Source: Thermococcus sp. LS1 (GTDB taxonomy: Archaea > Methanobacteriota_B > Thermococci > Thermococcales > Thermococcaceae). From it: a stretch of 64,000 nt of DNA. The notes below the pieces were generated by a model. That model saw nothing but the letters and a program-made list of their open reading frames with translations. It searched no databases and had not been told where the DNA came from. Location: assembly GCF_012027395.1 (NCBI RefSeq), contig NZ_SNUJ01000001.1:558001-622000 (forward strand), read 5' to 3'. Below, in pieces: positions 1,553 to 56,549 of this stretch. The translations under genes were made by a program, and so were the position numbers. Numbering within the stretch: the first letter of the stretch is position 1; each line of letters begins with the position of its first letter.

Positions 1553-1608
1553 GGGATGATGAGTCTGGAGCCCCCTGATTGATGAGGAGGTTTCGCGGGG
1601 CTGACCGC
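1553..1608 (+). ncRNA. C/D box sRNA (2'-O-methylation guide)
   Basis: All four boxes are present in order and at standard spacing: C box ATGATGA (1556-1562), D' box CTGA (1575-1578), C' box TGATGA (1580-1585), D box CTGA (1601-1604). The first guide is 12 nt (1563-1574); its complement GGGGCUCCAGAC contains CUCCAGA, the expected anticodon loop of tRNA-Trp(CCA). The second guide (1586-1600) is complementary to GCGAAACCUCC, which from memory lies just after the conserved archaeal 16S site around E. coli 344-363. The element sits in the leader of the gene at 1610, whose ATG begins five bases after the D box. Targets are inferred. Confidence 0.8.
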
Positions 1609-46192: not shown

Positions 46193-46516
46193 GGCGAGGG
46201 GGTCGGGGGCTCTCGGGGCACTCCCGAGGAAGTTCCGCCCACCGCACCGGGGCCGCGGTGCCGTAAGGCACCTCCCGAGAGGGAGGGCAACGGCGCAGAA
46301 ACGACACGCCCTGGCAGGGATGGGAATGAAAGCGGCGAAGGGGCCGGCGACGGCTCCCGAGCTAACCCGCAGACGACCTGTCAGGGAGCGGTGAAACGGC
46401 CGTCCCGCGGGGTGCAAGGCCGAAGAAGGGACGATGAATTCCCGGTGGGAGTCCCGTGGTAGGCCGCTCAGTCGAATGCCCCCTTGACACGGAAGGCGGG
46501 CTACGACCCCCTCGCC
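46193..46516 (+). ncRNA. rnpB: RNase P RNA, archaeal type A
   Basis: The 324-nt RNA begins with GGCGAGGGGGUCG and ends with its perfect complement CGACCCCCUCGCC, closing helix P1 (46193-46205 with 46504-46516). Inside are the conserved RNase P blocks: GAGGAAGUUCCGCCCACC, GGCAACGGCGCAGAAACGAC, GGGGUGCAAGGCC, GGUAGGCCGCUCAGUCGAAU, and AAGGCGGGCUACGAC near the 3' end. The 3' arm of P1 overlaps the convergent transporter gene at 46501. The usual ACAGAA of region CRV reads ACGGAA (see findings). A TATA box (ctttttatcc, about 46163-46172) gives the expected start. Confidence 0.96.
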
Positions 46517-53427: not shown

Positions 53428-54618
53428 ATGGCGAAGGTTTACGTTGACGCTCAGGCCGCGAGAGCTATAGGTAAAGGCGCGATGATAGTCTTTAAAAAGG
53501 GCGTGATCCGCGTTGAGGGTGAGGTTAAGCCGGGAGACATCGTTGAGGTTTACACGCGCGGAAAGAAGTTCCTCGGAAAGGGCTTCGTTAACCCCAACTC
53601 AAACATCATGGTTCGCCTCGTCACGAAGGACAAAGATACTGAGATAAACAAGGAACTCTTTCGGGAGAGGATCAAAAAGGCCAATGAGTATCGGAAGAAG
53701 GTTTTGGGTTATGATAAGGCCTACAGAATGGTCTACGGCGAGGCAGACTACCTGCCGGGTCTCATCGTGGATCGTTTCAACGAGATCGCTTCACTCCAGA
53801 TTTCAAGCGTTGGAATGGAGCGCTTCAAGCTTGATCTGGCCGAGGCTATAATGGAGGCCGAGCCCGAAATAGAGACCGTCTTCGAGAAGAACACCGGCCG
53901 CTCGCGCAGGAGGGAAGGCCTGCCCGAGATAGAGCGCGTCCTCCTTGGCAAGGAGAAGTATCGCACGATAATAGAGGAAGGAAAGGCAAAGTTTATCGTG
54001 GACATGCGCGGGCAGAAGACAGGCTTCTTCCTCGACCAGAGGGAGAACAGGATAGCCCTGGAAAAGTATGTCAAGCCTGGGATGAAGGTTCTGGATGTGT
54101 TTACTTACACGGGCGGCTTCGCTATCCACGCGGCCGTCGCCGGTGCCGAAAAAGTAGTTGCCGTCGACAAGTCACCGAGGGCCATCGAGATGGCCAAAGA
54201 AAATGCAAAGCTCAACGGCGTTGAGGACAGGATGGAGTTCATAGTTGGCTCCGCCTTCCCTGTTATGGAGGAGATGATAAAGCGCGGCGAGAAGTTCGAC
54301 ATAGTGATCCTCGATCCACCCGCCTTCGTCCAGCATGAAAAGGACCTAAAGCGCGGTCTTAGAGCTTACTTCAACGTGAACTACGCAGGTTTACAGCTCG
54401 TCAAGGAGGGGGGAATACTCGTTACTGCCTCGTGCTCCCAGCACGTTGACATGCAGACCTTCAAGGACATGGTGATAGCTGCAGCAGCAAAGGCTGGCAA
54501 GTTCCTCAGGATGCTTGAGCCCTACAGAACCCAGGCGCCAGACCATCCGATACTTATGGCCTCCAAAGATACGGAATACCTCAAGGCGCTCTTCCTCTAT
54601 GTGGAGGACATGAAGTGA
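53428..54618 (+). CDS. PUA-domain SAM-dependent rRNA methyltransferase (RlmI-like)
   Basis: A 396-residue class I methyltransferase with an N-terminal PUA RNA-binding domain (MAKVYVDAQAARAIGKG, GDIVEVYTRGKKFLGKGFVN), the EEHD-like linker (VYGEADYLPGLIVDRF), and the Rossmann core with DMRGQKTGFFLDQRENR, VLDVFTYTGGFAIHAA, and the catalytic DPPAFVQ. TASCSQHVDM holds a conserved Cys used by 5-methylcytosine enzymes. The relatives RlmI/PH1915 methylate cytosine in 23S rRNA, so the same is likely here; the exact base is unknown. It has a GGTGGTGAG ribosome site. Confidence 0.92.
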   Translation: MAKVYVDAQAARAIGKGAMIVFKKGVIRVEGEVKPGDIVEVYTRGKKFLGKGFVNPNSNIMVRLVTKDKDTEINKELFRERIKKANEYRKKVLGYDKAYRMVYGEADYLPGLIVDRFNEIASLQISSVGMERFKLDLAEAIMEAEPEIETVFEKNTGRSRRREGLPEIERVLLGKEKYRTIIEEGKAKFIVDMRGQKTGFFLDQRENRIALEKYVKPGMKVLDVFTYTGGFAIHAAVAGAEKVVAVDKSPRAIEMAKENAKLNGVEDRMEFIVGSAFPVMEEMIKRGEKFDIVILDPPAFVQHEKDLKRGLRAYFNVNYAGLQLVKEGGILVTASCSQHVDMQTFKDMVIAAAAKAGKFLRMLEPYRTQAPDHPILMASKDTEYLKALFLYVEDMK

Positions 54619-54713
54619 GACTCCGCCCAGCGGAGCGTCGAGGGACGATGAGGAGAAAGCACCTCCTCTGATTCCGGCGTGAGTGATGAGACGCCCACGG
54701 GCCCGAGTCCCTC
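54619..54713 (+). ncRNA. GC-rich structured intergenic RNA candidate
   Basis: The 93-bp gap between two convergent genes is unusually G+C-rich for this genome and is almost wholly self-complementary. Helices: CTCCG-cccag-CGGAG (54621-54635); outer stem GAGGGAC (54640-54646) with GTCCCTC (54707-54713); inside it GAGGAG (54650-54655) with CTCCTC (54663-54668), and GGCGT (54676-54680) with ACGCC (54691-54695). Together these form a three-way junction preceded by a hairpin. CTGA (54668-54671) and GTGATGA (54683-54689) look like D' and C' boxes, but the outer C/D boxes are only partial. It may be a variant C/D or H/ACA-type sRNA, or a bidirectional terminator. Confidence 0.4.
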
Positions 54714-55485
54714 ATGTCTCTAAAATCAGGCTGTGCCTCCAGCGGGTTCCGGCTTTGAACCTCACGTCTTTGATTTTATATCCTAGTTCTCTTCCTTTTT
54801 CGGCTATCGCCTCGATGAGAGGTTTCTTATCTGGCAAGAAGAGGGCAACTTTTCCCCTGGGCTTCAGGCAGTCAAGCGCCTCCTCGATGAGCCTCACTGA
54901 AAAGCCTTCCCCATATTTCCCCCCACCGACGCCTTCCGTTTCTGTCAGGACTCCCCTCGTAGGCCTCTCGTAGTAGGGTGGGGCAGAGAAGATAACGTCG
55001 AACTTCTCTCCCTCAGGGATTACACCCCGGATTATCCCGCCGTTGCTTTTGATTAGCCTGACTCTGGCATTGTTCCTCTCGATGTTGGCCTTGGCGTAGG
55101 CGAAAAACTCCTCATCAATCTCCGTCGCGGTAACGTCGCAGTTGAAAAGCTTCGCCGCCATGAGCGCCATCATGGCAGTATGCCCGGTTCCTATCTCCAG
55201 AACTCTCTCGCCGCCGCGGAGGAAGGTTTTCAGAAAGATGTATCGTGAAACGGGGGTAGTAACAAGTCCGCGCGGGTGGTATTCTATGTCGAGACCGAAA
55301 ACGGCCTTCGCGATAGCCCGGTTGTAGAGTATCCTTGCCTCCCTGTTCGAGAAGTCCAGCCTGCCTTTCTTGTCGAGGTGTCTCTCCAGCTCCGGGAAGA
55401 TCTTAACGGCCTCACTGATAGGCAGTCCGAGCTTTCCGTCCTTCCAAGTGGGCATGGGAACATAATCAGCACGGAGGTTTTTCAA
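54712..55485 (-). CDS. RlmF/METTL16-like N6-adenine RNA methyltransferase
   Basis: A 257-residue class I methyltransferase: VLEIGTGHTAMMALMAAKL holds the SAM-binding glycines, VTATEIDEEFFAYA the ribose acidic residue, and SAPPYYERPTRGVL the NPPF-like catalytic loop typical of N6-adenine and RlmF/METTL16-type enzymes. KPRGKVALFLPDKK follows. The start is TTG 55485 with no GGTG site; ATG 55455 is an alternative. The target may be rRNA adenine. It shares a promoter gap (TATA elements 55520-55545 on both strands) with the divergent gene at 55563. Its stop overlaps the 3' side of the structured element. Confidence 0.72.
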   Translation of the reverse strand: MKNLRADYVPMPTWKDGKLGLPISEAVKIFPELERHLDKKGRLDFSNREARILYNRAIAKAVFGLDIEYHPRGLVTTPVSRYIFLKTFLRGGERVLEIGTGHTAMMALMAAKLFNCDVTATEIDEEFFAYAKANIERNNARVRLIKSNGGIIRGVIPEGEKFDVIFSAPPYYERPTRGVLTETEGVGGGKYGEGFSVRLIEEALDCLKPRGKVALFLPDKKPLIEAIAEKGRELGYKIKDVRFKAGTRWRHSLILET

Positions 55486-55562
55486 CTTTATGAGTTATTT
55501 TGTTTAGAAGTCATAGAAAGATTTAAATAATATCGTCATTAAAATACTATTGGTAATCGTTG

Positions 55563-56549
55563 ATGGCAACATTTGGACTGTGGTATTTTAGGTGGAATGG
55601 CGAAGAGAACGTCTCCACGCTGGGCAATGCTGAGAATGAGTTTGGGAGATTCTTTGACTATGCAGTGGCCCTTCCAGCTAGGGAAAGGGTAGATAGTGGT
55701 GTCAAAGAACTTGCTGTATACACTGGAAATGGCTTCAATGATGGGAGAAAATTCGCTGAAGATATCTTCTCGACAATAAAAAGTATCCCGGTATATGTGG
55801 CAATTCCTTACTGGAAGAGCTATATTCCAGAACCACGAGAGAATCCAAAAGGAGGGAACAAGTACTGGCTTGATTGGCTAAACGGTGTACTGAGTGTAAA
55901 TTCTTCCAACCTCAGGGGATTTTATTGGAGTCTTGAAAGTGCTTGGATGTTTATAAATTACTATAAAGATGTTCTTTGCAATCAGGGACAAATGCCTTAC
56001 GTGAACCCCCAAACTATTGACATTTTAAGTGAAGAAATCCACAACAGAGGCCTTGAGTTTATATGGATTCCCTACGCCAGGACATATGCCCTCCAAAATA
56101 CCGATATCTGGCCCCGTGATTATCCAGTGTGCGGAAAGGATTGGTCAATTCCAGGAGGTTCAGAATTTTTTGATCTGGTCTTCGTTCAATCAAATTATTA
56201 TCAATGCAGGGATTGGTATAAAAATGTGCAGTGGACAGATGAGGAAGGAAAAGTGAGGACTGGCCTTTCTTTGGGTGAATGGGTGGATATGCTAACTGAC
56301 ATAAATCGTTCCAAAAATACCAGCAACGTCTTCGTCGAATTTGAATGTGATGGCAGAATTTTGACAGGCGGTGATGATAATTGCAGTGGGATTTGGCATC
56401 CCTCCACTGAATACAAAGATAGGGCATGTAAATACGTCGAGTGTTCTGGGCAGTTTATTAACCGAGCATACTACTTTGATACAAACTTGAATAACATTAG
56501 TTTTATGAATGGATACTGCCAAGAAACGTTAGGTGAAAGGTATGTCTAG
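55563..56549 (+). CDS. DUF4855-like protein, possibly secreted
   Basis: A 328-residue protein with the look of DUF4855: ATFGLWYFRWNGEENVS, RGFYWSLESAWMF, LEFIWIPYARTYA and FFDLVFVQSNYYQ, followed by a GEWVD and VFVEFECDGR segment. It has at least eight cysteines, usual only for extracytoplasmic proteins, yet no signal peptide is visible: the frame is closed by a TAA nine bases before ATG 55563. Either the N-terminus was lost or the protein is exported some other way. The gene is plainly A+T-richer than its neighbours and overlaps the next by 8 bp. DUF4855 proteins are thought to be carbohydrate-active, but this is not shown. Confidence 0.6.
   Translation: MATFGLWYFRWNGEENVSTLGNAENEFGRFFDYAVALPARERVDSGVKELAVYTGNGFNDGRKFAEDIFSTIKSIPVYVAIPYWKSYIPEPRENPKGGNKYWLDWLNGVLSVNSSNLRGFYWSLESAWMFINYYKDVLCNQGQMPYVNPQTIDILSEEIHNRGLEFIWIPYARTYALQNTDIWPRDYPVCGKDWSIPGGSEFFDLVFVQSNYYQCRDWYKNVQWTDEEGKVRTGLSLGEWVDMLTDINRSKNTSNVFVEFECDGRILTGGDDNCSGIWHPSTEYKDRACKYVECSGQFINRAYYFDTNLNNISFMNGYCQETLGERYV

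Follow-up and report, generated by a model that had tools for sequence, protein, structure and literature searches.

A conserved C/D box sRNA gene of family RF01128 between convergent RNA methyltransferase genes in Thermococcus sp. LS1, with predicted targets in 16S rRNA and tRNA-Ser

What is encoded by the GC-rich, self-complementary DNA lying between two convergent RNA methyltransferase genes of Thermococcus sp. LS1? The element was encountered in a 64,000-nucleotide stretch of contig NZ_SNUJ01000001.1 (hereafter the window), and an earlier note, based on the letters alone, had proposed either an undescribed small RNA or a double terminator for both genes. Positions 54619-54713 comprise 95 nt, not 93 bp as noted at the time, and are indeed GC-rich, with 66.3% GC versus 52.0% for the whole window, a level equalled by 0.5% of 95-nt windows within the 64 kb. 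As described before, the element is situated between convergent genes, which are an RlmI-like gene on the forward strand (53428-54618) and a Methyltransf_10 gene on the reverse strand (54712-55485), and it overlaps the stop codon of the latter (54712-54714), as the 3' strand of its outer stem ends at 54713.

In an Rfam scan of the whole window on both strands, three matches were obtained, one of which is family RF01128 at 54643-54708 on the forward strand, scoring 64.6 bits versus a cut-off of 45 and covering the whole model (1-56). RF01128 is sR43 (titled 'Small nucleolar RNA sR42'), an archaeal C/D box sRNA. Moreover, four boxes occur in the order canonical for archaeal C/D sRNAs, namely C, D', C' and D (ATGAGGA, CTGA, GTGATGA and CCGA), and the guides immediately preceding D' and D are complementary to rRNA and tRNA, respectively. 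It is practically certain that 54640-54713 (+) encodes a C/D box guide sRNA belonging to this archaeal family. Hence, the small RNA suggested earlier is there, while 'undescribed' does not apply to it given the RF01128 match; the RNA itself is an ordinary member of a known family, its possible new point being the tRNA-Ser target. Compared with the RF01128 model, the window RNA has the same boxes and both guides but carries a 7-nt insert in the D'-C' loop, and the model reads 'uCuGA' after ACGCCCACGG where the window reads 'gCCCGA', with one base more before box D. Elsewhere in the window, another C/D sRNA (RF01138, sR23; 1554-1606 (+), 74.2 bits) and the archaeal RNase P RNA (46194-46515 (+), 189.6 bits) are found. 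The features of the locus are as follows:

53428-54618 (+): RlmI-like gene, PUA plus SAM methyltransferase (rRNA m5C methyltransferase family; PF17785, PF10672)
54620-54636 (no strand): small hairpin ACTCCGCCCAGCGGAGC, after the RlmI stop codon and ahead of the sRNA
54640-54646 (+): terminal stem, 5' strand GAGGGAC; the inner five pairs covary with 54707-54711
54647-54649 (+): k-turn bulge GAT, 3 nt, whose A and T also open box C
54648-54654 (+): box C, ATGAGGA (consensus RUGAUGA, position 5 U changed to G; Rfam alignment)
54655-54667 (+): D' guide GAAAGCACCTCCT; 54659-54669 pairs with 16S rRNA 986-996
54668-54671 (+): box D', CTGA (CTGA in 85 of 88 parsed relatives)
54672-54682 (+): D'-C' loop (k-loop), variable in length and sequence among relatives
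54683-54689 (+): box C', GTGATGA
54690-54702 (+): D guide GACGCCCACGGGC, 13 nt, one shorter in most relatives; pairs with tRNA-Ser
54703-54706 (+): box D, CCGA
54707-54713 (+): terminal stem, 3' strand GTCCCTC, its last two bases within the convergent gene's stop codon
54712-55485 (-): convergent RNA methyltransferase gene, Methyltransf_10 (RlmF-like; PF05971, 44.8 bits, cut-off 23)

For the RlmI-like gene, the best NCBIfam entry is the 23S rRNA C1962 methyltransferase with 316.5 bits, which is under its cut-off of 575. Farther on, a 329-aa open frame at 55560-56549 (+) is without Pfam or NCBIfam match at E 0.001.

The D'- and C'-like boxes that had been pointed out previously are thus present, whereas the description of the outer boxes as non-standard needs qualification: box C deviates at position 5 and box D at position 2, but both are still C/D boxes. 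Together, these positions make up the third k-turn pair, which is G-C in the window and G-T in 23, G-C in 20, A-T in 12, C-C in 9, C-G in 6 and of other types in 18 of the 88 relatives that were parsed (a set leaving out G049, at a contig end). The pair is therefore free to vary yet often paired, and k-turns tolerate variation at this position. Box D itself reads CTGA in 40, CCGA in 31, CGGA in 11 and CAGA in 6 of the 88, while the bulge reads GAT in 72 and AAT in 13 of them. By sequence, a k-turn is given by the stem adjoining the GAT bulge together with GA/GA of the two boxes, and the stem covaries in exactly that register. The spacers between boxes measure 13 nt each in the window and 13 and 12 nt in most relatives, close to the approximately 12 nt expected of archaeal C/D sRNAs; a D spacer of 10 nt, counted by eye, is found in copies carrying AAACGGGT or AAAAGGGT as D guide. 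Reading box C as xGATGA, with a stem lacking the bulge, was considered and dropped, as the C-D' spacing gives ATGANGA; the stem pairs are the same in both cases.

A perfect 7-bp outer stem (GAGGGAC 54640-54646 with GTCCCTC 54707-54713) had likewise been reported and is real. Perfect 7-bp inverted repeats at this spacing, however, start at 4 of 63,926 window positions, with 63,926/4^7 = 3.9 expected at random. The stem alone is thus at chance level and the evidence for it is its covariation in relatives. Compensatory changes, which the earlier note had asked for, are present: among 60 distinct flank pairs from 87 loci, 94.3% of cells are standard pairs, whereas registers slid along the same flanks are 46-59% paired and 2000 shuffles, which ignore kinship among genomes, give 66%, with a maximum of 75%. 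Each of the five terminal-stem pairs occurs as 3 or 4 Watson-Crick types. For this count, box D was picked regardless of pairing, with G049 and G023 (box D misparsed) left out. Examples are GGGAC/GTCCC in 44 and GCCGC/GCGGC in 5 genomes of genus g1, TGGCA/TGCCA in 3 of g4 and TGGCG/CGCTA in 4 of g5; since stem sequences differ between genera, kinship alone is an unlikely cause of the pairing. The three-way junction proposed together with this stem fares differently. Its inner arms lack conservation: for the arm GAGGAG/CTCCTC to form, position 5 of box C has to be G and D' has to be preceded by T, a combination present in 20 of the 88 parsed relatives, so that the junction was rejected as a functional fold except for its outer stem. 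Folding stability is moderate for the composition: on the forward strand, the complete element has a z of -1.80 and the 74-nt RNA one of -2.15, and the reverse strand has -2.80. The hairpin claimed at 54620-54636 exists as well; its 15-nt core is found in two of 89 loci (those of the window's genome, G000, and of G026), and it is a recent structure outside the sRNA. Sites resembling it are not enriched in the window, with 6 versus 3.0 expected and 9 of 100 shuffles reaching 6.

The sRNA is widespread in the window's taxonomic family. At E of 0.001 or below it was found in 89 of 94 family genomes (73 of the 74 good-quality ones), in 71 of the 94 over the Rfam cut-off, and in none of 21 other genomes of the phylum or 14 controls. 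In 46 of the 89 loci, RlmI is found upstream, on the strand of the sRNA and no more than 130 nt away, and in two more it stands at a greater distance (48/89). In eight loci, all of g4 (L004, L005, L017, L028, L033, L034, L037 and L048), the sRNA lies between the same two genes, with the other methyltransferase gene (MT2) upstream on the sRNA strand and RlmI facing it, and in seven others (L044, L046, L050, L059, L061, L071 and L073) RlmI faces the sRNA with no MT2 in the flank examined. RlmI matches with a query end below 390 (G004, G006, G075, G086, G090 and G092) are cross-matches between methyltransferases and stand outside these classes. On the RlmI tree, six changes of sRNA orientation are needed. 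The g4 copy L013 (G080) shares an identical core with g1 copies and is oriented as they are, suggesting transfer or recombination.

In the window, the sRNA starts 21 nt after the RlmI-like stop codon, and none of seven TATA-like hexamers tried is present in 54501-54640. Given this short distance and the lack of both TATA-like hexamer and terminator, the sRNA is most likely cut from an RlmI read-through transcript, the RlmI-like gene being the probable source of the precursor. Release from read-through transcripts is likewise described for most archaeal C/D sRNAs in the available part of a review (PMC7994747). Visual inspection of other copies shows TTATAA or TTATAT some 22-27 nt ahead of the terminal stem, in g5 (L060, L062-L066) and g4 (e.g. 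L004 and L005), which suggests that these may have a promoter of their own.

A transcript, the other piece of evidence that had been called for, is available from Thermococcus kodakarensis, in whose genome (G024) the orthologue is located at 1593071-1593134 (-). At the published KOD1 C/D sRNA coordinates, a lenient pattern fits 22 of 25 loci in G024, two reading N and one being a misfit; in view of these C/D-like RNAs, G024 is taken as T. kodakarensis KOD1. The orthologue falls inside the interval of ncRNA03 (1593064-1593134, 71 nt; PMC9014305, Table 1, in the part of the paper available). For this RNA, small RNA-seq gave 7,565 aligned and 403 circular reads in the wild type as opposed to 9,633 and 1 in the RNA-ligase knockout, and total RNA-seq gave 149 and 4 (wild type) and 83 and 0 (knockout), respectively (PMC9014305). 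Ligation depends on terminal-stem pairing and not on the boxes according to the same source, in whose available text no alias for ncRNA03 is given. The orthologue is thus transcribed and circularised. Like the window RNA, ncRNA03 is located behind an RlmI-like gene, and its 71-nt junction encloses the same boxes; unlike it, ncRNA03 has a 12-nt D spacer, box D CTGA and a predicted site at U44 instead of G43. T. kodakarensis sR42 (1226948-1227017), judging from the same portion of PMC9014305, is likewise a C/D sRNA with a terminal stem and strongly circularised; its similar name notwithstanding, it is a separate gene whose guides differ. Across the C/D sRNAs listed there as circular (G024 loci L092, L093 and L175-L194), the ratio of circular to aligned reads is higher when box C position 5 is not T (median 0.0158 vs 0.0009, n = 9 and 11; Mann-Whitney p 0.019, a post hoc comparison with boxes assigned by eye and 5 of the 25 listed loci left out).

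With these data at hand, the readings that do without a guide RNA on the forward strand can be weighed. A double terminator serving both convergent genes would suit the position between them, and both strands do fold. No run of T, however, stands in the element or directly after the structure on either strand: on the forward strand, 54601-54900 contains a single run of five T, at 54796, the reverse strand of 54401-54720 contains none, and a terminator scan of 54400-55000 returned no terminator-like site in the element. Conservation, furthermore, concerns boxes, guides and terminal stem, the orthologue is a discrete circularised RNA according to the accessible text of PMC9014305, and the RNA has the opposite orientation in other lineages. 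The terminator proposal, which does not stand, is accordingly considered very improbable. Still harder to credit is a functional RNA on the reverse strand, where it would serve the convergent methyltransferase gene as a structured 3' UTR, even though that strand folds slightly better (z of -2.80 vs -1.80): the Rfam match is on the forward strand only, despite a search of both, and boxes C, D', C' and D as well as the guides are read on the forward strand. The T. kodakarensis junction also brackets these same boxes, although the strand of the reads is unstated in the available text of PMC9014305.

Taking the locus as a C/D sRNA gene, its two guides raise the matter of targets. Archaeal C/D sRNAs are bound by L7Ae, Nop5 and fibrillarin, and riboses opposite the fifth guide nucleotide are methylated. 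Positions 54659-54669, comprising part of the D' guide and the first two bases of box D', form 11 of 11 Watson-Crick pairs with 16S rRNA 986-996 of the same genome, the fifth nucleotide before D' facing G992, which we take to correspond approximately to E. coli 1050. The same target is also present in T. kodakarensis 16S rRNA, and the guide core GCACCTCC is found in 89 of 89 loci. As shuffles of the 9-nt D' guide match rRNA in 5.5% of trials, the 16S assignment rests on adjacency to D' and on conservation. On these grounds, G992 of 16S rRNA is the likely target of the D' guide and thereby a predicted methylation site. An alternative 23S rRNA site at 1699-1707 was rejected, as two box D bases would be needed for pairing.

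The D guide, in turn, forms 12 of 12 Watson-Crick pairs with the genome's own tRNA-Ser(CGA), and 12 Watson-Crick pairs plus one G-U with tRNA-Ser(GGA), these being its two best matches among the 42 tRNAs found. Shuffled guides match one of the 42 tRNAs at a frequency of 0.0008 as 12-mers and 0.0098 as 10-mers, and against the genome's own rRNA no perfect 10-mer match of the guide was obtained. In relatives with the usual 12-nt D spacer, the fifth nucleotide faces U44 of tRNA-Ser; in the window's clade (G000, G026, G029 and G040) one extra base is found before box D, and as a result of this insertion G43 is faced instead. Guide indels that shift target sites have precedent (PMC4644070, in the part available). 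The 13-nt spacer could also weaken D-guide activity in this clade.

Among 66 genomes with the original D guide type and a tRNA-Ser compared, 55 show at least 10 contiguous pairs, a count in which some loci carry flanks, both strands were tried and the short 'other' matches of G050, G055 and G058 are due to chance. In a strict recount restricted to the sense strand and to retrieved tRNAs, 37 of 49 genomes reach at least 10 pairs, 34 of them with the fifth nucleotide facing U44 and three, from the window's clade, with it facing G43. For the 12 genomes below 10 pairs, one or two isoacceptors were compared, and in nine of these genomes one or more tRNA-Ser have the 8-nt site. Of the 89 loci, 73 retain the original guide type, and the 8-nt tRNA-Ser site is found in 69 of these 73 genomes compared with 7 of the 16 with another D guide (Fisher p 9e-6), or in 60 of 62 versus 5 of 12 when genomes at least 90% complete are considered (p 1.4e-5). 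These Fisher tests ignore kinship, and a tree of 61 RlmI 3' segments is poorly resolved: on this 61-genome tree, a phylogeny-aware test yielded three supported independent pairs, with which a sign test is without power. The association across genomes is hence suggestive only. The site is missing from four genomes with the original type, G016, G034, G063 (85% complete) and G081 (79%); G016 and G034 have altered D guides, as do G029 and G078, in which the site is present. On the tRNA side, seven genomes with another D guide, two tRNA-Ser genes being compared in each, all read CCAG rather than CCCG or TCCG before TG. CCAG also occurs in three original-guide genomes, G016 and G034 (both genes compared) and G072 (one gene), while the one tRNA-Ser gene compared from each of four g5 genomes reads CCAC. 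In part of g1 (L075-L080 and L082-L087), the D guide is replaced by AAACGGGT or AAAAGGGT. The former has an 8-nt match to 23S rRNA 2945-2952 of the window's genome (shuffle frequency 0.0175), the latter no 8-nt match; here the target may have changed from tRNA to rRNA.

A tRNA-Ser target of the RF01128 sRNA is not mentioned in the literature searched. No archaeal Um44 was seen in that literature or in the available part of PMC6313347, and the main text of a P. furiosus tRNA mass spectrometry study that included Ser(GGA) is without Um44 (PMC7668247, in part). As far as the latter source was accessible, most database-predicted C/D sites in P. furiosus tRNAs went undetected, and tRNA-Ser is not among the P. 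furiosus tRNA targets quoted there from the Lowe-lab database. In yeast, U44 of tRNA-Ser is methylated by Trm44 (PMC10608323, accessible part). The eukaryotic enzyme, as portrayed there, and the sRNA, as predicted, would have the tRNA family and the modified ribose position in common, but the enzyme is a stand-alone, non-homologous protein, whereas the system in the window is predicted to be RNA-guided.

The main competitor to the tRNA assignment accepts a real C/D sRNA with its D' guide on 16S rRNA, but regards the D guide as an orphan or as directed elsewhere, the tRNA-Ser match being a coincidence between GC-rich sequences. Where the anticodon stem meets the variable arm, the tRNA is rich in GC and under structural constraint, seven of the 16 genomes with another D guide have the tRNA site nonetheless, the phylogeny-aware test is powerless, and the 10-nt core of the D guide also fits 23S rRNA 368-377 apart from one internal mismatch. 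A perfect 12-nt duplex with the genome's own tRNA-Ser(CGA) at a shuffle frequency of 0.0008 is, on the other hand, an argument against this view, as are a guide type retained by 73 of the 89 loci and, with a 12-nt spacer, a fifth nucleotide falling on U44, the very site of Trm44 (PMC10608323, as far as available). An orphan D guide is therefore unlikely, though it is a serious contender, and we consider it rather probable that the D guide targets tRNA-Ser at the anticodon stem/variable arm junction, where methylation would be expected.

Taken as a whole, the preferred account, an RF01128 sRNA with 16S rRNA and tRNA-Ser methylation, release from the RlmI transcript and circularisation, appears highly likely. 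According to this model, the sRNA would be excised from the RlmI read-through transcript; boxes C and D together with the terminal stem would form a k-turn and boxes D' and C' a k-loop, both of which would be bound by L7Ae, Nop5 and fibrillarin, as for C/D sRNAs in general. The D' guide would then direct 2'-O-methylation of 16S rRNA G992 and the D guide methylation of tRNA-Ser, at U44 in most relatives and at G43 in the window's clade, while the ATP-dependent RNA ligase would join the paired ends to give a circle, as reported for the T. kodakarensis copy.

Whether the RNA is a double guide linking the maturation of ribosome and tRNA, by way of 16S rRNA and of tRNA-Ser position 44 as counterpart of the Trm44 mark, is in our view evenly balanced; in that scenario, guide and tRNA anticodon stem would have changed in step within parts of the genus, and in the window's clade a one-base insertion would have moved the mark to G43. 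Were the tRNA-Ser target true, a ribose methylation made in yeast by a dedicated protein would here follow an RNA-guided route, and the C/D sRNA would combine one rRNA guide with one tRNA guide. This would be of interest in light of Pyrobaculum work, for which a 2021 review (PMC7994747, in the part available) states that the second guide of tRNA-targeting sRNAs has no target. Guide-target coevolution would, moreover, become directly testable in culturable Thermococcus species through the D guide replacements, the one-base insertion and the shifts in tRNA sequence.
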